Assembly: GCA_030431455.1 (NCBI GenBank)
Contig: JAUIJE010000001.1
Coordinates: forward strand, 186,001-250,000
Source of the DNA: a bacterium
Lineage (GTDB): Bacteria > Myxococcota > UBA727 > JAUIJE01
Reading direction: 5' to 3'
DNA length: 64,000 nt
Below the pieces are notes generated by a model. The model ran no database searches. It had not been told where the DNA came from and saw only the letters and a program-made list of their open reading frames with translations. Below are positions 45,447 through 60,616 of this stretch, piece after piece. Every line of letters begins with the position of its first letter. The stretch's first letter is position 1. The position numbers and the translations under genes are program-made.

Positions 45447-46640
45447 TCACCCGCGGAGATGGGCGAAGAACCGTTTGGCCTTGCTCGCGGCGGGGAACAC
45501 CTCGACCCCCACCTCGCGGAGCATGTCTTTGACGATGTTGTCCACCCGCTCGCCGATGGTGGGGTCGGGCACTTCGATCTCGAGCTCGTACGCGACGTGG
45601 TCGCCGGGGAACGTGGTGGTGTCCATCTCCAATGTGACTTCAATGTCCCCCAACTCGTCGCGCAGGGTGAATGGCTTTTTGATCCGGCGGTTCTCGAAGC
45701 TGCCGATGTTGGCCAGGGCCGCCCCCTCGAGCAGTTTGCGCATGTCGTCGGGCAGCACCGCCTCGGCCCCGTCCAGGGGATGCATCTGGGCGTACACCAG
45801 CGGGTCGAACTGCCCGGACTCGAACTCCGCGGTGGCCTCCTGATCGAGCACCCACTCCTCTTCGCGCTTCTGGGTCAGGGTCCCGTCCCCCGAGGAGCGC
45901 CCCTTGAGCGTGAGGGTCAGGGTGTCGCCCTCACGGCGCACCCGGCACACCATCTTCTCGCGGTTGAGCAGGAAAAAACTCGGGGTGTCGTAGAAGGTGT
46001 TCACCTGCACCCGCTGCACGGTGTCGTCGAGGCCGAACACCGCCCGGGCCTTGTCCGCGTCCGCTTTGCCGTTGAACGCGAATTTGAGCTCTACCTCTTG
46101 CGGCCCGAACAGCTCGCGGCCCACCGCCTCGAGCACGCGGGCGAGCTCGATGGGGGGCGGGTTGCAATGTGGCTGCACGTGAACGTGCAGCTGCCGCACG
46201 GACAGCGCGCGGGGGGGGTTGACCCAACACTGCACCGGCTGGGTCAACGTCGCGTGGGTCTGAAGGGCGTGCACCACCCGGCCCGCGAGCCGCTCGAGCG
46301 CGAGCTGCTCGGTGGCGGACAGGTCGGTGAGGAACATCGCGGGGCGCTTGGGCACGATCAGCATCTTGAGCCCGGCCCCGAAGCGGTCGAGCAACACCAT
46401 GTGGGTGTCGTCCTCGAACACCACCTGCTCGTCGTCGCGCGCCCCCGGCGCGTCCTCGGCGATGGGGGTGAAGGGGTCGGCCAGTTTCTCCACCCGGCCC
46501 CGCGCGGCCTTGACCGCGTCGTAGACCGCCTCGTTGGTGCCGCCGAGGGCGGCCTTCCAATCCGCGAACAGGGCCGGCCGGGCATCGTCGGCTTGACTGA
46601 CCCGGTGCGCGGGGGCGATGTCCTCGTCGTGGTTGCTCAT
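45447..46640 (-). CDS. HIT-domain / CYTH-domain fusion protein
   Basis: 397 residues. N-terminal HIT-like domain (about 70-160): LIVPKRPAMFLTDLS, then LHVHVQPH with His152, His154 and Gln156, i.e. the GalT-type H-x-H-x-Q form of the HIT motif with the nucleophilic His154. C-terminal CYTH/triphosphate-tunnel domain (about 180-395): EVELK (ExExK, 182-186), FYDTPSFFLL, CRVRREGDTLTLTLKG (233-247), KREEEW and YELEIEVP. The HIT family transfers or hydrolyses nucleotides, CYTH handles triphosphates, so the fusion probably acts on a nucleotide or inorganic triphosphate. No clear ribosome-binding site; a dyad abuts the start. No other obvious hypothesis fits both halves. Confidence 0.75.
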   Translation of the reverse strand: MSNHDEDIAPAHRVSQADDARPALFADWKAALGGTNEAVYDAVKAARGRVEKLADPFTPIAEDAPGARDDEQVVFEDDTHMVLLDRFGAGLKMLIVPKRPAMFLTDLSATEQLALERLAGRVVHALQTHATLTQPVQCWVNPPRALSVRQLHVHVQPHCNPPPIELARVLEAVGRELFGPQEVELKFAFNGKADADKARAVFGLDDTVQRVQVNTFYDTPSFFLLNREKMVCRVRREGDTLTLTLKGRSSGDGTLTQKREEEWVLDQEATAEFESGQFDPLVYAQMHPLDGAEAVLPDDMRKLLEGAALANIGSFENRRIKKPFTLRDELGDIEVTLEMDTTTFPGDHVAYELEIEVPDPTIGERVDNIVKDMLREVGVEVFPAASKAKRFFAHLRG

Positions 46641-46689: not shown

Positions 46690-49600
46690 TCAGCCTTGGG
46701 CGGGCGCGGTCAGTCCGCTCCAGGTCTCCAGTCGTTTGATCACCTGCGGCAGGTTGCTCCACCGGAGCGCGCTGGGGTCGAGCTTGTCCTTCTTCGCCGC
46801 CGCCCGCAGGGCTTTGCCCATCCAGGTCTCGGTCTCGGCGTTGAGGGCGCTGACGTCGATTTGGCCCGAGGTCTTGAGCGAGTCCACAATGGCATTGGTG
46901 TCCCAGCGCATGCCCTCGGACAGGTAGAGACCATCGGGGACCTCGAGCTTGCGGCTCTTGACCGCCTTTTTGAGGTCGTTGCTGCGGCTCAGGTCGCTCA
47001 TCACCGCGAGCACATCCTGCGGGGGGTTGCCGGCGTCGTCGACCAGCGCCCACAGCTTGTCGAACAGCTTGTCCTCATCCGAGAAGAACACCTGCTTGGC
47101 CTGCTCCTGGTAGGCGGCCTCGAAGTGGGCCTTGAGGTACTTCACCTTGGGGGCGGCCACATCGGGCAGGCCACCCGAGGACTGGTAGCGTTTGATCGCT
47201 TCGTCGGCGGTGTTGTGGCGCAACGAGCGCACCACCTGGTTCAAGGTCTGGGCCGCGGCCCCGGCGTCGAGGGCTTTCTCCACATAGGTGCGCAGGCTGC
47301 TGTTGTAGCTGACCCCGATTTCGCCCGCTGCGCCTTTGAGCACGTTGTGGACCGCGGCCTTGTCGACCGAGATCGACGGGGGCGTGACCCCGATGCGCTG
47401 GGCCGCCTCGGTGAACCACTTTTGGTAGTCCGCGCGGGACAGGGGATAGAGATTGCGCGCCTTGTCCGGGCTGGTCTGGTTGGCCACGTCGGCGAGGAAG
47501 GTCTCCAGCTCGGGGGTGAACACAACGTGATTGTTCGCGAGCTGGGCCTTGGCCCCATCGATGAACTGGGTCGGGTCGGTGTGCAGGGCGGGCACCTCCA
47601 GGCCGCCGGCCGCGGTGGCCAAGGTCTTGAGCCCGCTGTCCGCGTAGTAGTTCAACGACTGGATGGCCCGGCGCAGCTGGTAGGCGCTCGCCCCTTTGCG
47701 CTTGGCCGCGCGGAGCAGGGTCATGATCGCGTCCTTGTCTCCGGGCGCGACCCAGCCTTGTTTCATTTGGGCGTCGATCTTCTCGGCCTCGGCGAGCTTG
47801 TCGACGTTGATGGTCGCGCTCGGCGCGGGGGAGACGCCGGCTTTCTGGGCGAGCTCGGCCAGGGCTTTGCCCTCGTCCCCGGTGCGCAGCTGCCCCACCA
47901 ACCGGTGGAGGTCTTTGGGGGCGAGCTTCTTGGTGTCGAGCTGCTTGAGCATGTCCCGGATGCCCTTGTTGCTGTCGAGGCCCACCGATTCGAGGGTGTC
48001 GTCGACGAGCACGGACAGCGCCCGGTGGTCGTAGACGAGCTTGGGTGCGCTGCGGCCGAACACCTTTTTCACCAACGCGGCCGGGTCTTGACCGTTCCAG
48101 TCTTGGTCGAGCTGTTGGTTGAGCTTGTCGAGGCCGCCGTCTTTGTCCGCGAGCTTGTCGAACGCGGCCGCGAGGTCGTCGGTCCAGTCGAGACCAAAGC
48201 CGCGCAGGGCGAACTCGAGGCGCCGCTCCGCCCCCGCTTCGGTGTCCGGGTTCATGTCGAGGAGGTCGGCGGCGTGGGCGGCTTTTTGCTTGCCCGGGTT
48301 GAGCCCATCGGGGAACAGGAAGGGCAGCAGCTTGCCGTTGGCCCCCTCGAACTGCTTGTACGAATCGGTGCCCCGGAACGATTTGTTCTCGAGGTCTTCG
48401 AGCTCGTGCAGGCGGGGGTCGATGTCCATGGTGACCTTGGACCCGGTGGTCTTGAGCCAATCGTCCTGGGCATCGTCGGTGGAGAACGAGCCCGTGCCCG
48501 CCCCCGCGGCCTGGAAGCTGTTCTGGTTCTGCGATTGCAGCTGGAGGTGATCGAGTTCGCCCTCGAGCACGCAGAACTCAATCTTGCGCGGCTTGCCGTT
48601 GCGGTCGGCGTGGGTTGGGCGCAATGTCTCTGCAGTGACAAAGTCGAACGAGAACTCGATCTCGACCCCGGTCTTTTCGTTCTTCACCGTGAACTTGTGA
48701 CGGTCCTGGGTGATCTGCATGAATGGGTCGAGGGCCTCGGCGAGCTCGAGCTGGCTGTCGAGCTTCTTCACCTCGCGCTCGGCGTGGTTGAACACCGTGT
48801 TCGCCCATTTGCCGTTGGTCGCGACCCCCCGCAGAAAGCCGGCCACATCGTCGGTGTCCGCGTCCGCCTTGAGCTCCAAACCGACCTCTACGCGCTGGCG
48901 GATGCCGGTCTTGTCGTCGAGGCGACCGCCCCCGGGCTTGACGTTGATGAAGGTGGCCTGCTTGTTTTTGCGCAACCGCACCGCGCCTTCGTGGCGGGTC
49001 ATGGTGAGGTTCTTGTTGTCCATGTAGGCGTCGCTCATGGGGTCTTGCAGGGGCAGCCCGTCGTCGCCCACGCGGAAGCCAGCGAAAAACCCGGTGCCGG
49101 GTTTGCCCTTGTCGCTGCTGCCGTCGTCCTTGATCCAGTACCGGTTGACGGTGCTGATCGACCAGCCCTTGCCGAGGAGCTTCTCGATCTGGCTGTGGTC
49201 GCCTTTGCTGCTGGCCTCGACGATGCCGTACATCTTGTGCACCGCCGCGGTCATCTTGGCTTTGTCGGTGGTGCCTTTGAACTCAGACTCCAAGCGCGAC
49301 ACGATCGCGCCCCCGTCCTTGAGCATGGGGTAGGTCGCCACCAAGTCGGGGGCGTAGCCCACCTGCATGTCCAGGGGCAGGTCGGTGGCGTCGCCTTGGT
49401 TGCCGGTCATCGCCCCGATGCGGGTCGACGTCGGAGATTGGGCCCCTTCGGGCAACGGGGTCCGGAAGGAACCGCCGCGCGCCGGCCCCCCCGCGCGGTG
49501 CCGCACCCCCCCGCTGTCGTTGTTCCACATCGCCATCACCGACAAGCTGGTGTGGCCGGGGTTGATCTTGAGGTTGGGGTTGCGGGCCTGGAGGAACTTG

Positions 49601-50121
49601 TTCACGTCGGCGTAGCTGACGTCGAACGTGCGCGAGCCGCGGTACTTGTCCCCGTTGATGTTCTCTTTGTTGGTCAACACCGACAGGTTGATGGTGCGCA
49701 GCTGGTTGGTCTCGAGGTCGAGCACCTCGGCCATCAGCACCAGGGTCATCTTGTCGTTCTTGTCCTTGTGGAACGTGTTGACCGTGACCCGCACCCCGCC
49801 GGGGATGGCTTGGGGTTCGACCTCGATGTAGCCGCGCTTGACCGCGTCGCTGCCCGAGCCCGCGGTGAACGAGGTGTCCGCGCCGAAGCGGTTGGTGGCC
49901 ATGGTGTCGAAGGTGGTGGTCAACCCTTTGAGGCCGTTGATCGTCGCCTTGGGGGGTTGGTTGCTGATGCGCCCGGCCCCCGAGGGCACCGGCGCGGCGT
50001 CGGCCGCGGGGGTGGCGTCGCTGGTCGCGGGGGCCGCGGGGGCGGCCGGCCCGGTGGTCGCGGTGGTGCTGGTCGTCGAGGTCGCGGGGCGATTGGTGCG
50101 GGGTCGGTTGATGTGGGGCAT
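46690..50121 (-). CDS. Giant CYTH/triphosphate-tunnel protein, paralogue A
   Basis: 1143 residues starting MPHINRPR, GAGGC before the ATG. Layout: disordered Pro/Ala/Thr tail (1-50); beta-rich domain (60-215: GGVRVTVNTFHKDKND, VLDLETNQLRTINL, YADVNKFLQARNPNLK); CYTH domain (272-530) with ExExK as ESEFK (278-282), YMDNKNLTMTRHEG (367), RLRK (382-385), Lys395, RQRVEVGLEL (408), RHKFTVK (474), VEIEFSFDF (486) and CVLEGELDH (517); then about 570 residues of helical repeats of 80-90 residues. All tunnel signature positions are present, so it is likely catalytic. Its CYTH part is nearly the same as in B and C while the repeats have diverged. Substrate unknown: triphosphate, polyphosphate or a nucleotide. 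Confidence 0.75.
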   Translation of the reverse strand: MPHINRPRTNRPATSTTSTTATTGPAAPAAPATSDATPAADAAPVPSGAGRISNQPPKATINGLKGLTTTFDTMATNRFGADTSFTAGSGSDAVKRGYIEVEPQAIPGGVRVTVNTFHKDKNDKMTLVLMAEVLDLETNQLRTINLSVLTNKENINGDKYRGSRTFDVSYADVNKFLQARNPNLKINPGHTSLSVMAMWNNDSGGVRHRAGGPARGGSFRTPLPEGAQSPTSTRIGAMTGNQGDATDLPLDMQVGYAPDLVATYPMLKDGGAIVSRLESEFKGTTDKAKMTAAVHKMYGIVEASSKGDHSQIEKLLGKGWSISTVNRYWIKDDGSSDKGKPGTGFFAGFRVGDDGLPLQDPMSDAYMDNKNLTMTRHEGAVRLRKNKQATFINVKPGGGRLDDKTGIRQRVEVGLELKADADTDDVAGFLRGVATNGKWANTVFNHAEREVKKLDSQLELAEALDPFMQITQDRHKFTVKNEKTGVEIEFSFDFVTAETLRPTHADRNGKPRKIEFCVLEGELDHLQLQSQNQNSFQAAGAGTGSFSTDDAQDDWLKTTGSKVTMDIDPRLHELEDLENKSFRGTDSYKQFEGANGKLLPFLFPDGLNPGKQKAAHAADLLDMNPDTEAGAERRLEFALRGFGLDWTDDLAAAFDKLADKDGGLDKLNQQLDQDWNGQDPAALVKKVFGRSAPKLVYDHRALSVLVDDTLESVGLDSNKGIRDMLKQLDTKKLAPKDLHRLVGQLRTGDEGKALAELAQKAGVSPAPSATINVDKLAEAEKIDAQMKQGWVAPGDKDAIMTLLRAAKRKGASAYQLRRAIQSLNYYADSGLKTLATAAGGLEVPALHTDPTQFIDGAKAQLANNHVVFTPELETFLADVANQTSPDKARNLYPLSRADYQKWFTEAAQRIGVTPPSISVDKAAVHNVLKGAAGEIGVSYNSSLRTYVEKALDAGAAAQTLNQVVRSLRHNTADEAIKRYQSSGGLPDVAAPKVKYLKAHFEAAYQEQAKQVFFSDEDKLFDKLWALVDDAGNPPQDVLAVMSDLSRSNDLKKAVKSRKLEVPDGLYLSEGMRWDTNAIVDSLKTSGQIDVSALNAETETWMGKALRAAAKKDKLDPSALRWSNLPQVIKRLETWSGLTAPAQG

Positions 50122-50159
50122 GGGGCCTCGGGGACAAAATGGGTGTCGGGGCGTTCGAC

Positions 50160-50193
50160 AAAAAATGGAGCGCGCGGGGTCGGGCCCCGCGCG
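50160..50193 (-). terminator. Intrinsic terminator between giant genes B and A
   Basis: Perfect 9-bp GC stem (50171-50179 with 50185-50193), loop TCGGG, followed on the minus strand after 5 nt by TTTTTT (50165-50160). It implies that paralogue A is either expressed by read-through or from its own promoter. Confidence 0.75.
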
Positions 50194-50218
50194 AAGAGGG
50201 CGGAAGGGCCGCCGCGGT

Positions 50219-53200
50219 CTAGGGCACGCCCGCCGGGGGCGCGTCGCCGGACCAGGCTTGCACGTGTTTGACCACGTTCTGCGGGGTCTGGTTGTAAATG
50301 GTGTAGAGCACAAACTCGGGGTTCTGGATCGCCTTGGGCAACGCCTGCTCGAGGTACTTTTCAAGCTCAGGCTTCATCGTGCGCATGTAGCTCGACGAGG
50401 TCTTCCAGTAGCTGATGAGCTGATCGGGCTGCCACGCCACCTTGGGCTCGGTCAGGCCGTCGGGGACTTTGTAGGCGGGGACGAACCGCTTGAACGCCTC
50501 GCCCAATGTCTTGGAGCGGTTGAAGTACCCCGCGGCCCGGGTGAGGTTGTAGGGCGTGAGGGTCGGGTCGGCTTTGCACAGATCCACAATGAACTGCGCG
50601 ATCTCGCCGTGGTTGTTGAAGGGCACGTTCTGCGTGCTGTTCTGCAGGTTGTTGGACACAAAGCCCGGCTCGAACGAAATCTGCGGCACCTGCGTGCCCT
50701 CGGGCAAGGCCACCCGTTGGCGGCTGAACGCGTTGGCCGGCGTTTGGTTCCAGAGGCTGGCCACGAACCCTTCGACCTTGGACACCGGCGCGCCGTTGCC
50801 GAGCAGGTCGAGGGCGAACTTGGTCAAGGCGTCGTCGACCACGACCCCCACCTGACCGGCCGCGCCTTGGAGCCGGGACTTGACCGCGCTCTCGTCGAGC
50901 TGGAGCGGGGGCGCGGTCAGACCTTGCTTGGCCGCGAAGGCATCGAGCTGCTGCTTGAAGTCGGCGCGGGCCAGGCTCGACACGAAGGTGTGCATGTCGC
51001 GGCGCGGGACCTTCTTGGCCGCTTCTTTGAGGAAGTCCTCGAGGGCGCTGTCCACCATCACCAGGTGGGACGAGAGTTTGCCCGCGACCTCGCCGATGAC
51101 GCGCTTTTTGTCCGCGTGCAGCACCGGCGGGGTGGTCCCGGGGGCGGCCTGGGCCACCCGCTGGAGCGCCGACTCCGGGTTGTTGGCGAACACCGCGAGA
51201 GCGTCGCGGATCTTCTTGGCGCTGGCGCCCTTTTGCACCGCGTCGTCGACGAACGCCTGGATGTCGCCGAACGCCCCGCGGTCGATCCACGCCGCCGCCA
51301 TCGGGCCGTGCAGCCCCTGGGTGAGCTTTTGCGTGTCGATGCCGGGCGCGGGCACCGGGCTGACCCCCAGCGCGTTGGCCAGCGCGGTGAACGCGAGCTT
51401 GTCGTCTTGCTGGGGCACCCCGTTGAGCAACGTGCGCAGCTGTTGCGGGGGCAGCTTGGCGATGTCGATCTGGCCGAGCATGGCCTCGATCTCGGGGGTC
51501 ATGGTCAGCCCCAGCCCGGTGAGGCTCGCCTCGACGGTGGACTTGATCATCGCCGGGTCGTAGCGGAGGCCGGTCACGGGCTGGTTGTCGTTGAGTTGCT
51601 GCAGCAGCCCGTCAATGTTGTTGCGGTACTTGTCGAGGATCTGGTTGGTGCTTTGCACCCCGCCGTCGGCCTCGGCCTTGGTCTTGACGAGTTTTTCGAG
51701 CTCAGGCGTCCACTCGATGCCGTACTGCCCGACGAGGAAGGCCATCTTGTTGACCACCGCGGGCGCGTCCTTGACCACCGCGGACAGCAGGTCCGCACCG
51801 TGGGCGGCCTTCTGCTTGGCGGGGTCGAGTCCGGCGGGGAACAAGAAAGGCAGGAGCTTCTTGTTCGCCCCTTCGAAGGCTTTGTAGGAGCCGGTGGAGC
51901 GGAACGATTCGTTCTCCAGGTCCTCGAGCTCGTGCAGCCGGGGATCGATGTCCATCGTGGCCTGGGCCGACGTGGCCTTGAGCCAGTCGTCTTGGCTGTT
52001 GTCGTCCTTGAACGCCAAAAAGCCCGCGCTCGACCCTTGAAAGTCAGTGGCATTGGCGGACTGCAGCTGAAGGTGGTCGAGCTCGGCCTCGAGCACCGCG
52101 TATTTGACCTCCCGGGGGGAGCCGTCGAGGTTGCCGTGCTCGTTGCGCAACGTACGGGCGGTGACGAAGTCGAAGCTGAGCTCGATCTCGACCCCGGTTT
52201 TTTCGTTCTTGACCGTGAACTTGTGGCGGTCCTGGGTCACGTCGAGGAACGGCTGCAGGGTGTTGGCCAGCTGCATGCTCGCGTCGAGTTTTTTGACCTG
52301 CCGCTCGGCGTGGTTGAACACCGTGTTGGACCATTTGGCGTTGCGGGCCACGTCCTTGAGGTACTTGGCCGCGTCCTGTTGGGTCGCGTCCGCGCGCAGC
52401 TCCACCCCGACCTCGACCCGCTGGCGGATGCCGGTGCGCGGGTCGAGCCGGCCCCCGCCGGGCTTGACGTTGATGAACGTGGCCTGCTCGTTCTTGCGCA
52501 GGCGGATGGCGCCTTCCTCTTTGGTCATCGAGAGCTGGGCGTCGTCCATGTACTGGTCGCGCATGGGGTCTTGGATGGGCAGGCCCTCGTCGTCGACGCG
52601 GAACCCTTTGAACATCCCGGTGCCGGCTTGGCCCGGGGCGTTGGCGCTCCCGTCGTCCTTGAGCCAGTAGCGGTTGACGGTGGTGATGTTCCAGTCGGGG
52701 CCGAGCAGTTGGGTGATGCCCGAGCGGTCCCCGCCGGCGGCTTTGCCGACGAGGTCGTACATCTTGCGCACCGCCGAGGCCATGTCCTTCTGGGTCGAGC
52801 TGCCCTTGAACTCGGACTCGAGCCGGCTCACCACCGAGCCGCCTTGCTTGAGCATGGGGAACTGCTTGACCAGCTCAGCGGGGTAGGCGACCTGCATGTC
52901 GAGGGGCAGGTCGGTCTGCTCGGTGTGTCCCGTGACATTGCCGATGCGGGTGGCGGTGGGGGATTGCGCCCCGGCGGGCAGCGGGGTGCGGAAGTTGCCG
53001 CCCCGGCCCGGGCCCCCGGCTTGGTGGCTGCCGTTGAACTTCGCCGCCACCGCGAGCGACGTCGTGCCCGGGTTGAGCTTGAGGTTGGGGTTGCGCGCTT
53101 GCAGGTAGGCGTTGACGTCGGCGTAGCTGATGTCGAACGACGCGGACCCGCGGTAGCCGCCCTCGTTGAGCACCACCTGTTTGGCCAGGACCGCGAGGTT

Positions 53201-53638
53201 GATGGTGCGCAGCTGGTTGGATTTGGTGTCGAGGACCTCGGCCTGCAACACGAGGGTGAGCTTGTCCCCCTTCGACTTGTGGAAGGTGTTGACGTGAATG
53301 CGCGCGCCCCCGGGGATCGCGTCCGCGCTGACCTCGATGAAGCCGCGGCTGACCGCGCCTTCGCCCTCGGCGTGGAAGTTGTTGAACTCGGTGGTGACGT
53401 TGAAGCGGCTGCCCGCGGCCGACAATTCGCGCGCATCGAGGCCGTTGAGCCCGTTGATCGGGACCTTGGGCACCGCGGCGTTGATGGTGCCGGCGGCCGA
53501 GGGAATGGGGGCGTCGGGGGTGGCCGCGCCGGCGGGCGTGGTGGTGCCGGTGGCGGTGGTCGACGTCGTCGCGCCGGCGCCCGTGGTCCCGGTGGTCGCG
53601 GTCGGGGTGGTGGGGCGGTTGCGGTTGATGCTGGGCAT
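50219..53638 (-). CDS. Giant CYTH/triphosphate-tunnel protein, paralogue B
   Basis: 1139 residues starting MPSINRNR, GAGGTG before the ATG. Same layout as A: Thr/Ala/Pro tail to about 48, beta-rich domain (GGARIHVNTFHKSKGD, YADVNAYLQARNPNLK), CYTH domain with ESEFK (274-278), QYMDDAQLSMTKEEG, RLRKNEQATFINVK, RQRVEVGVEL, RHKFTVKNEKTGVEIELSFDF and AVLEAELDH, then helical repeats ending in IYNQTPQNVV. The acidic strand is VLEAELDH where A has VLEGELDH. In the repeats, units share a P-x-x-x-(V/L)D-x(3)-V start. No signal peptide or TM, so cytoplasmic unless the tail directs export. Confidence 0.75.
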   Translation of the reverse strand: MPSINRNRPTTPTATTGTTGAGATTSTTATGTTTPAGAATPDAPIPSAAGTINAAVPKVPINGLNGLDARELSAAGSRFNVTTEFNNFHAEGEGAVSRGFIEVSADAIPGGARIHVNTFHKSKGDKLTLVLQAEVLDTKSNQLRTINLAVLAKQVVLNEGGYRGSASFDISYADVNAYLQARNPNLKLNPGTTSLAVAAKFNGSHQAGGPGRGGNFRTPLPAGAQSPTATRIGNVTGHTEQTDLPLDMQVAYPAELVKQFPMLKQGGSVVSRLESEFKGSSTQKDMASAVRKMYDLVGKAAGGDRSGITQLLGPDWNITTVNRYWLKDDGSANAPGQAGTGMFKGFRVDDEGLPIQDPMRDQYMDDAQLSMTKEEGAIRLRKNEQATFINVKPGGGRLDPRTGIRQRVEVGVELRADATQQDAAKYLKDVARNAKWSNTVFNHAERQVKKLDASMQLANTLQPFLDVTQDRHKFTVKNEKTGVEIELSFDFVTARTLRNEHGNLDGSPREVKYAVLEAELDHLQLQSANATDFQGSSAGFLAFKDDNSQDDWLKATSAQATMDIDPRLHELEDLENESFRSTGSYKAFEGANKKLLPFLFPAGLDPAKQKAAHGADLLSAVVKDAPAVVNKMAFLVGQYGIEWTPELEKLVKTKAEADGGVQSTNQILDKYRNNIDGLLQQLNDNQPVTGLRYDPAMIKSTVEASLTGLGLTMTPEIEAMLGQIDIAKLPPQQLRTLLNGVPQQDDKLAFTALANALGVSPVPAPGIDTQKLTQGLHGPMAAAWIDRGAFGDIQAFVDDAVQKGASAKKIRDALAVFANNPESALQRVAQAAPGTTPPVLHADKKRVIGEVAGKLSSHLVMVDSALEDFLKEAAKKVPRRDMHTFVSSLARADFKQQLDAFAAKQGLTAPPLQLDESAVKSRLQGAAGQVGVVVDDALTKFALDLLGNGAPVSKVEGFVASLWNQTPANAFSRQRVALPEGTQVPQISFEPGFVSNNLQNSTQNVPFNNHGEIAQFIVDLCKADPTLTPYNLTRAAGYFNRSKTLGEAFKRFVPAYKVPDGLTEPKVAWQPDQLISYWKTSSSYMRTMKPELEKYLEQALPKAIQNPEFVLYTIYNQTPQNVVKHVQAWSGDAPPAGVP

Positions 53639-53709
53639 GGGGCACCTCGGTTGGCGGATCCCACGCGCGGGGCCGGGGCCCCAAATGGGCCGGGGCTCGG
53701 ACGGCTTCC

Positions 53710-53744
53710 GACAACCCAAAACTCTATGAAATCAAGGGGTTGTC
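53710..53744. promoter_or_regulatory. Inverted repeat upstream of paralogue B
   Basis: GACAACCC and its exact complement GGGTTGTC, 19 nt apart, 72 bp before the start of B. The spacer is A/T-rich and could hold promoter elements. Candidate operator or mRNA leader hairpin. Confidence 0.4.
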
Positions 53745-53754
53745 TGGCGGGGAA

Positions 53755-53806
53755 CCGTGCCCCCTATATAGCCCAAACTCCGCCGGATTGGCGGAGAAAG
53801 CCCGCG
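53755..53806 (-). promoter_or_regulatory. Upstream block shared by paralogues B and C (copy at B)
   Basis: About 50 bp that align with 57361-57412 upstream of C: CCGTGCCC, a TAT-containing step, GCCCAA, then CCG-ATT-GGCGGAG and GCCCGCG. At B the element includes a perfect dyad CTCCGCC-GGATT-GGCGGAG (53778-53796) and CTATATAG. Likely a shared promoter or operator duplicated with the genes. Confidence 0.55.
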
Positions 53807-53845
53807 TGCGGCCGCCTTGGCGCCCCTGGGCGCCACCCAAGCCGC

Positions 53846-53867
53846 TCTTACATAAGTCTTACATAAG
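53846..53867. repeat. Tandem 11-bp repeat TCTTACATAAG x2
   Basis: Two exact, adjacent copies of TCTTACATAAG just after the stop of paralogue C. Each has a CTTA/TAAG dyad, so this may be a double operator spaced by one helical turn, lying about 200 bp upstream of B. Confidence 0.7.
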
Positions 53868-53914
53868 TCCTGCGCGAGGTCCGCCCAGCGAAGGCCACCA
53901 CCGGCGATCCTGGG

Positions 53915-56900
53915 TCAGAGGCCGAGCGCGTCGGGCAGGGCCACCCCGGACTGCTCGGCCAGGCGTTTGGCCACCGACGACAAGCTGCCCTTTTTCATCC
54001 GCAGGATGCTGAACTTCGCGTCGCCGCTGGCCTTGTCGAACACCTTTTTGACCCACGCCTCGACCGCGGGGCTGACTTTGGCCCCGTGCGCTTGTTTGAG
54101 GTGGGCCACGAAGGCGTCCTCATCGAAGTCCACCGCGGGCACCGTGAGCCCGCCGGGCACATCCACCTTGGCGCTCTTGATCGCGGCCGCGAGGTCGGGC
54201 ACCCGAATCTTCTCGAACATCGCCACCACATCTCCAGGAGCATTGGCGCCGTCTTTGATCAGCTTCTCCCCGAAGGCGAGCAGCTTGGCCCCATTGCCCA
54301 CGAAGTTCTCGTCGAACGCCGCCTCGGCCGCGTGGTCGAACGCGGTGGGCGCGAACGCGATGTCCGGCACCGACAACCCCGCGGGGACCTTGATGTGGGA
54401 AGCCTTGAGCGCCTGCTCGGGGGTGTTCATCCACAGGCGGCTGACGAAGGGGGCAATCTTCGACGAGGGCGTGCCCGCGTCGGCCAGGGCGTGGCAAAAG
54501 CCCTTGAGCGACGCGTCGTAGACCACGTTGGCCCCCGCGCAGGCCGCCTTCAGGCTCTCGTCGAGGGCGGCCTTGTCGAGCTCGAGGGCGGGCATGGTCA
54601 CACCCAGGTCCTTGGCCTGCTTTTGCAAGAACCGCTCGAAGTCGCTTCGGCTCAGCGACGACACGAAGGTCTGGACCTCGGTGAGCGGCTTTTGCTCGGC
54701 CACCTGCTCGAGGAGCTTCTTCAGGGCGGGGGTGAGCTTGATGTTGTGGCGGGTGAAGTGGACGTTGGCCTCGTCGACCACGCGTTTTTTGTCCGCGTGG
54801 ATCACGGGGACCTGGGCCGCGCTCCCCCCCGGCGCGCTGCGGGCGATGTAACCCAGCGCGCGGTCGCCGTACGACGAGAAGTTGCGCATGTACGACGCGA
54901 TGCGGTCGCCGGTGACGCCCTGTTGGAGCATCTGCCCGAGGAACTTCTCGATCGCCTTCCGGTCGGCCGTGGCCACCCACGCGGTGTCGAGCTGGGGCTC
55001 GATGCTCTTCATGAATTTGGCGGGGGAGAACGTCGGCTCGGGAGCGCGGCCGCGTTGGCCGAGCCGGGCCGCCATGTTGCGGAACATGTAGGCGGGGGTG
55101 GCGGTGGCGAGGGCGTCCAGGGTCTGCTTGAGCTCCACCGGGTCGAGCTTTTTGGGGTCGAGCTTCTTGATCAGGTCTTTGACCCCGTCGTTGATGGTGT
55201 AGCCGGCGGCGTCGAGGGTGGCGGTGATGGTCTTTTCGATCCCGGCCTTGTCGTAGGTGAGGGCGGGGGTTCGCTGGGTGTCGAGCACCGCGGCGAGGTA
55301 CTGCTTGACGTTGCGGAACTGTGGCAAGCGGCCGAGGTCGCGGCCCACATCTTTGATGCCGTCGTCTTTGTCGAGGCGTTTTTTGAACGCTTTGTCGACG
55401 TTGGCGGTCCACTCCAGACCCAGCGAACGGAACTGCCGCTTGGCCGCGGTGAGCGCGCTGTTCTTGTCGGTGATGATCAGGTCCAGCAACGTGGCTGCGT
55501 GGGCGGCCTTCTGCTTGCCGGGCTTGAGCCCCCTCGGAAAGATGCGCTGGAGGAGCTTGCCGTTGGCCCCCTCGAACGCCTTGTAGGACTCAGTGGACCG
55601 AAAGCTGTTGTTCTTGAGGTCTTCGACCTCGTGCAGGCGGGGGTCGACGTCGAGGGTGACCTTGCTCGAGGTCTTCTTGAGCCAATCGTCCTGGCCCCGG
55701 TCGTCCGAGAACGACGACGACGACGCCCCCGCGGCCTGAAACTCATTCTGGTTGGCGGACTGCAGCTGCAGGTGGTCGAGCTCCCCTTCGAGCACACAGA
55801 ACTCGATGACCTGGGGCTTGCCGTCGGCGCCGGCGTGCTCCGGCCGGGTGGTGGTGGCCTTGACGAAGTCGAAGGAGAACTCGATCTCCACCCCCGTCTT
55901 CTCGTTCTTCACCGTGAACTTGTGGCGGTCTTGCACCACCTCGAGGAACGGCTTGAGGGACTCGCTGAGCGCGATGGTGGGGTCGAACTTGTGCACCTCG
56001 CGCTGGGCGTGGTTGTACACCGTGTTGCCCCACTGGGAATTGGTGGATACCCCGCGCAGAAAGCCCGCCGCGTCGTCGACATCGGCGTCGGCCTTGAGCT
56101 CGACCCCGACCTCCACGCGTTGGCGGATGCCGGTCTTGTCGTCGAGGCGACCGCCCCCCGGCTTGACGTTGATGAACGTGGCCTGCTTGTTCTTGCGCAG
56201 CCGGATCGCCCCTTCGTGGTGGGTCATGGAGAGGTTGCCGTCGTCCATGTAGCTGTCGCGCATCGGGTCCTGGATCGGCAGCCCTTCGTCGTCGACGCGG
56301 AACCCTTTGAAAAAGCCCGTGCCGGGCTTGCCCGGTTGCTCGGCCCCGCCCTCGTCCTTGAGCCAGTAGCGGTTGACCGTCGAGATCGTCCAATCCTTGC
56401 CGAGCAGCGCCTCGACGTCGCTCTTGTCGCCGCCCTGGATTTTCTCGACCATCGCGTACATCTCTTTGACCGCGCGGGTCATCTCCGCCTTGTCGGTGGT
56501 GCCTTTGAACTCCGACTCCAGGCGCGAGACGATGGCCCCCCCGGGCTTGAGCATCTTGTAGGTCCGGGTCAACGCGGGGTCGTAGGCGACCTGCATGTCG
56601 AGGGGCAGGTCGGTGGCCTCGCCGCGGTTGCCCGACAGGTTGCCGATGCGGGTGGCGGTGGCGCTCTGCGCGCCCGCGGGGAACGGGGTGCGGAACGAGC
56701 CCCCGCGCCCGGGCCCGCCGGCCTGGTGTCCGCTCTTGAAGCGGGCCGCGACCGACAGCGGGGTGTGACCGGGGTTGAGCTTGAGCGCGGGGTTGCGGGC
56801 TTTGAGCCACTTGTTCACGTCGTCGTACTTGAGGTCGTAGACCTTCTGCCCGCGGTAGCTGTCGCCGTTGATCTTCTCGTTCTCGGCGAGGATGCCGAGG

Positions 56901-57334
56901 GTCACGGTGCGCAGTTGGTTGGTCTTGGTGTCGAGCACCTCACACATCAAAAACAACGTGATCGCGTCGTTCTTGGTTTTGTGGAAGGTGTCGACGGTGA
57001 CGCGGCAACCGCCGGGGATGGGGTCGGCGTTGACCTCGATGAAGCCGCGATCGACCGGGCCTTCACCGTCGGCGTGGTAGTGCTGAAATTGGGAATCGCC
57101 CGCGAAGCGCCGGGTGGCGTTGGTGGGCATGGTCGGGCGCTTGCCGCCGAACCCGTCGATGGTGGCCTTGGGGACGTTGGATTGGATCTCGCCCGCCGCG
57201 CTCGGCACCGGGGGGGTCGTGCCCGACGTGCCCGCGGCCGGGGTGGTGGCGGTGGCGCCGCTGGTCGACGTCGCGGCCCCAGAGCTGGCGGCGCGCGGGG
57301 TCCGGGTGGAGCGGGGACGGTTGATGCGGGGCAT
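53915..57334 (-). CDS. Giant CYTH/triphosphate-tunnel protein, paralogue C
   Basis: 1139 residues starting MPRINRPR, GAGGTG before the ATG. Thr/Ala/Pro tail to about 48, beta-rich domain (GGCRVTVDTFHKTKND, YDDVNKWLKARNPALK), CYTH domain with ESEFK (273-277), SYMDDGNLSMTHHEG, RLRKNKQATFINVK, RQRVEVGVEL, RHKFTVK, VEIEFSFDF and CVLEGELDH, then helical repeats (VPAGLSVPDIAFAPTAF, VPGGLTVPAVDFDEDAF). Closest to A within the CYTH domain. First of the three giant genes in transcription order, 136 bp after the RMD1 gene; the shared promoter block is 27 bp upstream. Confidence 0.75.
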   Translation of the reverse strand: MPRINRPRSTRTPRAASSGAATSTSGATATTPAAGTSGTTPPVPSAAGEIQSNVPKATIDGFGGKRPTMPTNATRRFAGDSQFQHYHADGEGPVDRGFIEVNADPIPGGCRVTVDTFHKTKNDAITLFLMCEVLDTKTNQLRTVTLGILAENEKINGDSYRGQKVYDLKYDDVNKWLKARNPALKLNPGHTPLSVAARFKSGHQAGGPGRGGSFRTPFPAGAQSATATRIGNLSGNRGEATDLPLDMQVAYDPALTRTYKMLKPGGAIVSRLESEFKGTTDKAEMTRAVKEMYAMVEKIQGGDKSDVEALLGKDWTISTVNRYWLKDEGGAEQPGKPGTGFFKGFRVDDEGLPIQDPMRDSYMDDGNLSMTHHEGAIRLRKNKQATFINVKPGGGRLDDKTGIRQRVEVGVELKADADVDDAAGFLRGVSTNSQWGNTVYNHAQREVHKFDPTIALSESLKPFLEVVQDRHKFTVKNEKTGVEIEFSFDFVKATTTRPEHAGADGKPQVIEFCVLEGELDHLQLQSANQNEFQAAGASSSSFSDDRGQDDWLKKTSSKVTLDVDPRLHEVEDLKNNSFRSTESYKAFEGANGKLLQRIFPRGLKPGKQKAAHAATLLDLIITDKNSALTAAKRQFRSLGLEWTANVDKAFKKRLDKDDGIKDVGRDLGRLPQFRNVKQYLAAVLDTQRTPALTYDKAGIEKTITATLDAAGYTINDGVKDLIKKLDPKKLDPVELKQTLDALATATPAYMFRNMAARLGQRGRAPEPTFSPAKFMKSIEPQLDTAWVATADRKAIEKFLGQMLQQGVTGDRIASYMRNFSSYGDRALGYIARSAPGGSAAQVPVIHADKKRVVDEANVHFTRHNIKLTPALKKLLEQVAEQKPLTEVQTFVSSLSRSDFERFLQKQAKDLGVTMPALELDKAALDESLKAACAGANVVYDASLKGFCHALADAGTPSSKIAPFVSRLWMNTPEQALKASHIKVPAGLSVPDIAFAPTAFDHAAEAAFDENFVGNGAKLLAFGEKLIKDGANAPGDVVAMFEKIRVPDLAAAIKSAKVDVPGGLTVPAVDFDEDAFVAHLKQAHGAKVSPAVEAWVKKVFDKASGDAKFSILRMKKGSLSSVAKRLAEQSGVALPDALGL

Positions 57335-57470: not shown

Positions 57471-58337
57471 TCAGCTCTTGATCCACTCGCTGAGCATGAT
57501 GAAGACCTCGACCGCGATGAGGGCCACGATGAGCCACTCGAGCCGGAGGCTGCGGCGGTTGGCGCTCAGCTCGACGAGCATGCGGGCGGTGTCGTCGAGC
57601 AGCGCCATCTTGCGGTTGAAGGTGGCGTGGCGTTCGGACAGCTCGTATTCCTGGCGCAGGCCGGCGTAGAGGCGGTCGAGGTCGGGGCGGTCCCAGACCA
57701 CGTCGGGCTTTTCGTCGAGCTCGACGTCGCGCAAGAACCGGAACCGGTTCTTCAATGTTCCCCCAATGCTCTTGATCAGCGCGCGGTCGGTGCCGACCAC
57801 GCGGCCCCCGTCGGCCAAGCCGGTGGCCCAGCTCTCGGCGGTCTGGAGCAGCTCGACGATGGCCGCCTCCCGGTGGGCGAGGGCCACGCTCTGGGCGAGG
57901 GCGGTGGCGGCGACGTCGCAGTGGGCGAGGGTCAAGCGTTCGACCTGGGCCTGGCCGTTGTGCACGGTGAGCGGGCCGGGGCCTTGCTCGAGGACCAGGC
58001 CCTCGGTCTCGTCGATGTCCACCGCGCCGACGACGTGGGCGGCGAGGGTGGTGAGCACATGGGCGCGGACCAGCGGACCGGCCTCGAACAGCACGATCAC
58101 CCCGTAGGGGGCGACGAAACCGAACGCCCCGTCGGGGGCGGGGCTGGGGGGCGCCTTTTTGATCCGGGCCACGAACGCGGGGTCGAAGCGCTCCCCGAGG
58201 ATGATCGCTTCACCGACGACGCGGCCTCGCGGCAACGGGGCGACGTCGAGCCCGCCGGCGTCGACCGCGTACAGAGGAATGTTGACCGCGCCGGGGTCTT
58301 TGACCGGCAGCAGGGTGTCGTCGGGGTCGCGGGGCAT
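57471..58337 (-). CDS. RMD1/DUF155 family membrane protein
   Basis: 288 residues. The C-terminal DUF155 signature is clear: VVWDRPDLDRLYAGLRQEYE, ERHATFNRKMALLDDTARML and SLRLEWLIVALIAVEVFIM, ending in one TM. The N-terminal part (VVGEAIILGERFDP, APYGVIVLFEAG) is also typical. Eukaryotic relatives (Rmd1, Rmd8, Sif2) sit in mitochondrial or other membranes; the bacterial role is unknown. It is upstream of and co-oriented with the three CYTH giants. Confidence 0.82.
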   Translation of the reverse strand: MPRDPDDTLLPVKDPGAVNIPLYAVDAGGLDVAPLPRGRVVGEAIILGERFDPAFVARIKKAPPSPAPDGAFGFVAPYGVIVLFEAGPLVRAHVLTTLAAHVVGAVDIDETEGLVLEQGPGPLTVHNGQAQVERLTLAHCDVAATALAQSVALAHREAAIVELLQTAESWATGLADGGRVVGTDRALIKSIGGTLKNRFRFLRDVELDEKPDVVWDRPDLDRLYAGLRQEYELSERHATFNRKMALLDDTARMLVELSANRRSLRLEWLIVALIAVEVFIMLSEWIKS

Positions 58338-58444: not shown

Positions 58445-60616
58445 ATGCCACGGATGCGATTTACGTCCGAAGCGATGAACATGTTCACCAAGTCGCTCAT
58501 CGAGGCGCGCAAAAAGGGCGGGGTGGGCTCGGAGAACCTCGACATCGGCCTGCCCGACACGGACAAGAACCTGCGGGTACGCGACCGGCTCAAGCAAGCG
58601 TTCGGGGGCAAGCTCAACGCCGACGACGTGCGGGATCTGCAAAAGGCCGCCTTCGACGGCGGGCAGGTCACCGACGAGGAGGCCGTGTACCTCCTGCAAC
58701 AGGGGCTCAACGAGGACCGCTTCGAGAAGACCCCGTCCGGGGAGCTCACCGAGGCGGCCCGGCTCGCCCGCTTCGACCTGTTGCGCTTCGCGGTGTTGCA
58801 CCTCGCGGACATCGATCCGAGCAAGGCCACCAGCGAAAAGGCCGCCTCCCTCGCGGCCAACTCCCAGGTCATGCGCGAGTACATCAAAGGCACGGTGCGG
58901 GCCATCGTGTCCACCGGCGAGGCCGACCGGGTGTACCTCCAGGACGCGCAAAAAGCGGCCAAGGGGGTGACCGCCAACGCCGCGGTCAGCGACCTCGCCA
59001 AAAATGCCACTGCACAGGACGTGCTCCAGGTGTTCCTCGAGCAGACGGACGCGATCTCCGGCTGGGACTTTTTCAAGCCCGGCCAGACCCACAATGTCCT
59101 GTCCAAGCCGGGCATCAACTGGGGCATCAATGGCTACCCCACGGTCTCGAGCTGGGAGAGCGTGTACGCATCGGCATTGGGTACCTTGCAGCGAGGCAAA
59201 GAACGCGGCGCGGACGTGCACGTCACCGTGGCCGACGAGTCCGGCATCGAGAACAAAGACTTCGGCCGCACCACCATGGACAACATGGAGGACACCGGGA
59301 TTCTCGGGGGAGCGGTGCTGGCGGGGGTCGAGCAGTCCTTCCGGGACCAAGGGCTGGCCGGCGACGCCGCCCACCAGGCGGCGGTGGCCCATCTCGCCGA
59401 CGCGCTGCGCGCGGCGGGGGTGGAGGTGCCTGACAATGCCACTGCGGCCGATGTCGCGCCGTTGGTGCGCCGCACCCACCGGGGGCTGATCGATCGCGCC
59501 GAGCAGGCGGGGGTGAGCGTGATCCCCCTCGACGAACAAGCCACCCGCATCCTCAAGCCGGTGGTGAAAGGCGAGGACGAACCCCTGCTCCCGGGTGAGG
59601 CGCGGGTCACCCAAGAGCAGTTCGACGCGATGAAACACTTCCAGGACGGCATTCGGGTCTCCACCGCCCTCGACGACGTCACCGACATCATCAACCTCCC
59701 CAAGCCGCCCGGCCGGCACGGCATCATGTCCAACTGCGGCCTCACCGGCGCGGGCAAGAACTACATCGGGCTGATGCACGGCACCGATCGCAGCGAGAAC
59801 CTGCACAGCAAGTGGGCCCGCACCCCCCCGCGCCGCGACGGCGAAGACGCGGGGAGCTACGTCGAGCGCATCAAAGAGTTCGTCGAGTTTTTGGGGCCAC
59901 GGGGGGTCAACCGCGAGGACCTGAAGCGCCAATCCGATGTGTCAAAAGACGTGGCCGGCGTCGGCGATTGGCAGGCCCACGAGGACGAGCTGCTCCAGAC
60001 CGCGGAGGAGTGGGTGCTCAACATGAAGAGCGAAGGCCAAAAGCTCGCCAACGAGAAGGGCAACGAAGCGGAGGGGCCCGGGCAGCAGTGGTTCGAAAAA
60101 CTCGCCGAGCTGCAGTTGATGTTTCAGGACAAGCAGCGGTTTGTGTTCACCGACATGCGCCAGACGGTGGGCAGCTTCGGGCCGGATTTTGGGGAGAGCC
60201 TCGACGTGGGCAAAGCCATCGCCTCGGACAGCTCCGCGGTGGTGGACGCGTTGGCCTCGGCCGAGATCAAGGACGCGTACGAACGGAGCGGTCACGGCTT
60301 CGGCGGGGTGGACGAAGTGGCCGAGCTCGAAAACGCCCCCGAGGGGCTGCTCGGTTTGCCCCACCGCCTCCTCGGCCGGGTCCGCTCGGCGATGAGCACG
60401 GGCTACAAGGAGGCCCAAGGCGCGGGCTGGATGCGCGGCGGTGATCCCTTCACGCTGAAGAACCACGCGGCGTTCATGTCCATTCCCGGCCTGGCCCCCG
60501 CGGACATGACGATGGTGAACCTGCGCTTGGCCCCGGAGAGCTCGCGGCAAAGCCCGTCGCTGGGCAAGCAAGACCTGATGAGTCTGCGGCTTTCGCGGGC
60601 CCAAGCCGACGATTGA
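58445..60616 (+). CDS. Large protein of unknown function
   Basis: 723 residues, AGGAGG before the ATG. No signal peptide or TM. The N-terminal part has LNADDVRDLQKAAFDGGQVTDEE, a small helical module frequent at the start of myxobacterial unknown proteins. The middle is alpha/beta (WGINGYPTVSSWESVYASAL; GADVHVTVADESGIENKDFG), and a Gly/Cys-rich IMSNCGLTGAGKNYIGLMHG follows, then a long helical stretch. The GLTGAGKNY segment is not a clean Walker A. I cannot assign a family. Divergent from RMD1 by 107 bp and followed by the efflux operon's control region. Confidence 0.6.
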   Translation: MPRMRFTSEAMNMFTKSLIEARKKGGVGSENLDIGLPDTDKNLRVRDRLKQAFGGKLNADDVRDLQKAAFDGGQVTDEEAVYLLQQGLNEDRFEKTPSGELTEAARLARFDLLRFAVLHLADIDPSKATSEKAASLAANSQVMREYIKGTVRAIVSTGEADRVYLQDAQKAAKGVTANAAVSDLAKNATAQDVLQVFLEQTDAISGWDFFKPGQTHNVLSKPGINWGINGYPTVSSWESVYASALGTLQRGKERGADVHVTVADESGIENKDFGRTTMDNMEDTGILGGAVLAGVEQSFRDQGLAGDAAHQAAVAHLADALRAAGVEVPDNATAADVAPLVRRTHRGLIDRAEQAGVSVIPLDEQATRILKPVVKGEDEPLLPGEARVTQEQFDAMKHFQDGIRVSTALDDVTDIINLPKPPGRHGIMSNCGLTGAGKNYIGLMHGTDRSENLHSKWARTPPRRDGEDAGSYVERIKEFVEFLGPRGVNREDLKRQSDVSKDVAGVGDWQAHEDELLQTAEEWVLNMKSEGQKLANEKGNEAEGPGQQWFEKLAELQLMFQDKQRFVFTDMRQTVGSFGPDFGESLDVGKAIASDSSAVVDALASAEIKDAYERSGHGFGGVDEVAELENAPEGLLGLPHRLLGRVRSAMSTGYKEAQGAGWMRGGDPFTLKNHAAFMSIPGLAPADMTMVNLRLAPESSRQSPSLGKQDLMSLRLSRAQADD

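Follow-up and report, generated by a model that had tools for sequence, protein, structure and literature searches.

Tunnel triphosphatases are known from every domain of life, and their roles in bacteria are, to our knowledge, mostly unknown. Described proteins with the triphosphate tunnel metalloenzyme (TTM) fold include the E. coli inorganic triphosphatase YgiF (CYTH-CHAD, 5A60; about 430 residues), the single-domain SaTTM of Sulfolobus (7NS9/7NSF; about 180 residues), the TTM domain of the yeast polymerase Vtc4 (VTC, PF09359) and the RNA triphosphatases Cet1 and Pct1. The window analysed here, a stretch of 64,000 nucleotides on contig 8 of a 7.7 Mb Myxococcota genome (G000), carries three tandem minus-strand genes, ordered C, B and A along that strand. 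Each codes for about 1140 residues, in which a leader and a predicted N-terminal beta-sandwich precede a TTM/CYTH tunnel domain that is followed by six helical repeats (Table 1). A, B and C are probably multidomain triphosphatases, in which diverged tails take a shared TTM chemistry to different partners or substrates.

The three proteins share with YgiF the tunnel fold, the ExExK, RxR, Lys and ExE signatures and a helical C-terminal module, and with SaTTM the ExExK, DxY, AxRxR and ExE signatures. Unlike YgiF, they are of much larger size and possess the N-terminal beta-sandwich and the six-unit tail; a CYTH-CHAD assignment of the YgiF type was rejected, as Pfam gave no CHAD match and the tail is made of six units. 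The SPX and membrane parts of the Vtc4 system were not found in A, B and C, and in the case of Cet1 and Pct1 neither sequence similarity to A, B and C nor a capping partner at their locus was detected. The three proteins differ from every described CYTH group checked by their size, N-terminal domain, repeat tail and leader, and no paper describing bacterial CYTH proteins of about 1140 residues came up in a literature search of incomplete coverage.

The three genes are considered as real coding genes because their G+C content at third codon positions (GC3) is 0.90-0.92 in frame. Their ATG starts are conserved (MPRINR in C, MPSINR in B and MPHINR in A) and each is closely preceded by the ribosome-site motif GAGG(TG). 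The long plus-strand open reading frames (ORFs) on the opposite strand were rejected as GC shadows. Together with the protein lengths and the grouping of the copies in one clade, these data bore out three tandem paralogues of about 1140 residues, as announced in the earlier note on this DNA.

Fold and signature residues of the tunnel domain

Residues 58-645 of C were modelled with AlphaFold from 14 sequences, with a mean predicted local distance difference test score (pLDDT) of 81 and a predicted template modelling score (pTM) of 0.76. The predicted core is an eight-stranded beta-tunnel, and Foldseek places YgiF with tripolyphosphate first (E 4.7e-7). In the VIA-align comparison, the model was superposed on YgiF with a Z-score of 14.8 (205 residues aligned, root-mean-square deviation of 3.5 Å), on SaTTM with 12.7 (176 residues), on AtTTM3 with 12.4, on human thiamine triphosphatase with 11.8, on Vtc4 with 10.1 (220 residues) and on the Cet1-type RNA triphosphatases, Cet1 and Pct1, with 9-10; the rows 1 to 36 are all TTM-fold entries. 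The YgiF alignment starts with model residue 212 on chain residue 0. If this start is ungapped, model E216 (E273 of C) falls on YgiF Glu-4 and the ESEFK motif is set on Glu-4/Glu-6. The earlier note had named a model lacking the eight-stranded tunnel or scattering the signature residues as a refutation of its proposal; in fold and in residue order the model agrees with the proposal, the best matches being TTM structures. A spatial clustering of the acidic and basic signature side chains is implied by homology to the TTM enzymes.

The motifs listed in that proposal are all present in A, B and C in TTM order. In C, they are ESEFK (273), which is on the first tunnel strand, DSYMDD (360), RLRK, NVKPGG, RQRVEV (404), RHKFTVK (470), SFDFV (487) and VLEGELDH (514). 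ExExK and DxY lie about 83 residues apart, a spacing far larger than in single-domain TTMs. Conservation was measured on an alignment of 20 family members with identities to C down to 25%. All three signature residues of ExExK (Glu, Glu, Lys) as well as R378, R380, K391, R470, S487, D489, E516 and H521 were invariant in 20/20, whereas each of R406, E408, E518 and the DxY tyrosine deviated in one member, DxY being retained in 19. The basic wall (RxR, Lys, Arg) and the acidic ExE are found in TTM order throughout this alignment. These residues correspond to those holding two metals and the triphosphate in known TTM enzymes (PMC4641920, PMC8233210). Since these positions stay fixed, or almost fixed, across 20 divergent members and the Pfam CYTH model matches in register, the motifs are not due to chance.

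The CYTH profile search proposed in the earlier note was carried out and PF01928 matched A, B and C with E-values of 1e-3 to 1e-2 by hmmscan, always over profile positions 35-135. Among 14 family cores, seven were matched at E<1 (best 1e-5). A genome-wide PF01928 search listed B and A only, B reaching 23.6 bits, just above the cut-off, when frame neighbours were counted. Some observations weigh against the assignment to tunnel triphosphatases. The hmmscan scores of A, B and C (15.6-19.3 bits) are under the curated cut-off of 23.2, and the stand-alone CYTH proteins of relatives gave a weak profile-profile match (E 0.064), although in the expected register. Furthermore, Asp takes the place of two glutamates in member L020, the second one of ExE and that of RxRxE, and L016 carries Gly in place of an Arg. 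The family profile gave no match to the PDB by sequence. As Pfam CYTH sees these proteins weakly, standard annotation would tend to miss them. The family thus described keeps the catalytic residues, joins them to two further modules and lies near or below the standard CYTH detection limit; the motif set could let annotation pipelines find it.

Predicted activity

Triphosphatase is the best reading of the activity of A, B and C from their sequences, because the features discriminating the class IV cyclases, the thiamine triphosphatases and the VTC polymerases all come out against these activities. The class IV cyclases (CyaB) are marked by HF before ExExK, by a small residue for the first Arg of RxR and by ExA (PMC8233210). 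In the family, residues of VS, TT or ST type stand instead of HF, both Arg of RxR are kept and the second residue of ExE is acidic in 20/20 members, which speaks against an adenylyl cyclase of this class. The thiamine triphosphatases carry Trp or Tyr in (W/Y)xRxR (PMC8233210); Ala, Ile, Val or Leu precedes RxR in all 20 members and this activity is also disfavoured. In Vtc4, basic exit residues replace the acidic patch (PMC4641920). A VTC polyphosphate polymerase is disfavoured by the acidic patch E273, E275, E408 and E518, assigned by motif correspondence, and the VTC model of Pfam matched only one of the 14 cores (E 0.11). The presence of these glutamates instead of the basic exit residues of Vtc4 points to hydrolysis.

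Having the sequence and predicted-fold features of the TTM superfamily, A, B and C should work like tunnel triphosphatases. The barrel would bind a linear triphosphate, which may be inorganic tripolyphosphate, short polyphosphate or a 5'-triphosphate carried by RNA or a nucleotide. This substrate would be held by a basic wall made of K277, R378, R380, K391, R406 and R470 (C numbering), and its terminal phosphate would be hydrolysed with two Mg or Mn ions on the acidic patch E273, E275, E408, E516 and E518. The N-terminal beta-sandwich and the six-unit tail would act as binding modules, the diverged tails steering one chemistry to three different partners or substrates, and the MPxI leader with its disordered linker would probably be involved in localisation or export. 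Activity, substrate, partner binding and localisation are all properties that we infer for A, B and C. It is very improbable that the tunnel is a triphosphate- or polyphosphate-binding or sensor domain without enzymatic function, the whole protein being a scaffold. The large structural tail would suit such a role and catalytic residues also serve binding, but the acidic residues of the second metal, required for hydrolysis, are kept beyond the basic residues that bind phosphate.

Flanking modules and divergence of the three copies

The tail of A, B and C consists of six units of 73-80 residues starting with (V)PxhxhD, and the AlphaFold model of the array has a pLDDT of 89. C-terminal helical repeats had been described in the earlier note and are indeed present, their unit size being smaller than the 80-90 residues given there. 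Single units weakly resemble the C-terminal lid domains of AAA+ proteins (Z 4-5.5), a likeness that may reflect a common helical arrangement; unlike AAA+ proteins, A, B and C have no ATPase domain. Among the Foldseek matches listed, nothing in the PDB extended beyond single units. Many family members end directly after the tunnel domain, so the helical tail is a separable module. The N-terminal beta-sandwich, absent from the earlier description, is conserved in the family. A homology of the neighbouring protein P0007 to this domain, suggested by eye, was not retained since hhalign gave no support (P 0.16, little over column shuffles).

In the phylogenetic tree, A, B and C form one clade (support 100/97) near single long genes of other genomes and therefore arose by lineage-specific duplication; long forms sit at two places in the tree. 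The copies are 65-74% identical to each other in the tunnel domain; this figure falls to 57-62% in the N-terminal domain and to 27-29% in the tail. The contrast between a constant core and different tails, put forward in the earlier note, is thus confirmed for the tails, whereas the term near-invariant overstated the identity of the core. The low tail identity fits the idea of varied partners or cargo. In the tail, nonsynonymous distances (dN, NG86 method) are 0.84-0.91 and synonymous ones (dS) 0.75-0.83; dS is unreliable at a GC3 of 0.9 and no claim of positive selection (dN/dS >1) is made. As synonymous distances are similar along the gene, the head/tail contrast is one of amino-acid change. 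With three adjacent copies that keep their head and rapidly change their tail, one can ask directly what recruits the enzyme and to what substrate.

A strong terminator-like hairpin (50171-50193, minus strand) is located between B and A; its stem has 9 G-C pairs and a T-rich tail comes after it. A single operon for the three genes is unsupported, this stem separating B from A.

The family was found first in 9 of 39 genomes, then in 10 when 195 genomes of the phylum were covered; a genome-wide search found no further copy in the genome of A, B and C. No match was obtained in phages or plasmids by tblastn, in viral contigs or among PHROG families, and a phage, plasmid or viral origin was rejected on these empty searches. 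No PADLOC defence model matched the family and Rfam gave nothing for 42-62 kb of the window. Elsewhere, a long-form member at L040 (JAHFED010000001.1, 9770-12931) is spread over several frames, being apparently a pseudogene or an assembly error. At L094 (G017 contig 180), the last repeats only, without the tunnel domain, lie beside a P0007-like ORF, and this stretch looks like the remnant of a deleted long gene.

Table 1. Features of the A, B and C locus, in window positions.
Feature	Positions	Strand	Description
Gene C	53915-57334	-	1139 residues; leader, N-terminal beta-sandwich, TTM/CYTH, six helical repeats
Gene B	50219-53638	-	1139 residues; architecture as gene C
Gene A	46690-50121	-	1143 residues; architecture as gene C
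Leader of C	57170-57334	-	MPRINR and Thr/Pro/Ala/Gly/Ser-rich linker, presumably disordered
Leader of B	53468-53638	-	
Leader of A	49951-50121	-	
N-terminal domain of C	56630-57082	-	Predicted beta-sandwich, residues 85-235; strands between model residues 41 and 158; family-conserved
N-terminal domain of B	52928-53380	-	Homologous to C domain
N-terminal domain of A	49402-49866	-	Homologous to C domain
Tunnel domain of C	55466-56530	-	TTM/CYTH, residues 269-623 including C-terminal helices; AlphaFold model, YgiF match
Tunnel domain of B	51767-52831	-	TTM/CYTH; alignment; Pfam CYTH E 1.1e-3
Tunnel domain of A	48241-49302	-	TTM/CYTH; alignment; Pfam CYTH E 2.1e-3
Six helical repeats of C	53918-55267	-	Units at residues 690, 764, 842, 915, 989, 1065; AlphaFold model, unit alignment
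Six helical repeats of B	50222-51574	-	
Six helical repeats of A	46693-48045	-	
HIT-CYTH fusion	45447-46640	-	397 residues; Pfam CYTH 3.9e-14, HIT 1e-4
P0007	44114-44728	+	Starts MPNV and linker; function not assigned
P0006	42444-43799	+	Function not assigned
DUF155 gene	57471-58337		Upstream of C

Neighbouring genes and the recurring leader

Divergent from the DUF155 gene, a gene for a 723-residue protein (58445-60616, plus strand) shows a DUF362 match in its C-terminal half (E 3.9e-8); these two upstream genes were not seen at the other family loci examined. On the other side, the HIT-CYTH gene follows A on its strand after 49 bases. Its product carries HVHVQ in the HIT part and EVELK (ExExK) and YELEIE in the CYTH part, with a DcpS_C match (E 7e-4). 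The third position of HVHVQ is like that of GalT and Ap4A phosphorylases, and ExExK is intact. This neighbour bears on the possibility that the locus serves in RNA or dinucleotide end processing, the tunnels being RNA 5'-triphosphatases of Cet1/CYTH type and the HIT-CYTH protein acting on capped or NpnN-type products. We consider this quite unlikely. RNA triphosphatases do occur within the TTM fold and the adjacent gene does join HIT to CYTH, but the structures nearest to the core are inorganic triphosphatases, no RNA-binding domain was recognised, and the fusion was seen in this genome only, its halves being separate proteins in relatives.

P0007 homologues adjoin family members at L025 and L035 and a HIT protein at L098, and at L042 the P0006 homologue has both a family member and a CYTH gene standing alone as neighbours. 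Near other family members, P0006/P0007 types and a second CYTH gene that looks active thus occur again, and this recurrence of HIT-CYTH (in whole or in part), P0006 and P0007 types is suggestive of a common process.

The leader of about 55 residues, MPxI followed by a Thr/Pro/Ala/Gly/Ser-rich stretch, has counterparts on several of these neighbours, an MPx[IV] start being common to most family members and to P0006/P0007-type proteins. It is possibly a sorting or export tag. Its recurrence on such unrelated neighbours speaks for A, B and C being exported to serve as effectors or as surface proteins, by a type III-like or other route, with the leader as signal, the tail binding a target and the tunnel domain destroying nucleoside triphosphates or polyphosphate outside the cell or in prey or competitors. 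Of the 10 genomes with family members, 9, among them that of A, B and C, also have the type III gene hrcV over the cut-off. However, hrcV is over the cut-off in 113 of the 195 genomes of the phylum anyway, the overlap being weak, and a type III link was rejected since this co-occurrence is too common to discriminate. Furthermore, the hrcV locus does not adjoin A, B and C, the sole MPx[IV] leader beside hrcV, in another genome, belongs to an apparently unrelated enzyme, and a disordered leader is no proof of export. Such an export appears unlikely. It is improbable to a somewhat higher degree that A, B and C are exported, tag-carrying triphosphate destroyers whose six-unit tails choose the target, sharing their route with the P0006/P0007 types. 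They would then be the first effector-like system of polymorphic type to be based on a tunnel triphosphatase.

Scans of the A, B and C genome with two leader patterns, neither of which covers the MPxINR start of these three proteins, gave 1-3 matches, close to the 0-1 of the control. The MPx[IV] start with a Thr/Pro/Ala-rich linker was also observed on otherwise unrelated cluster proteins, at L025, L042 and other loci.
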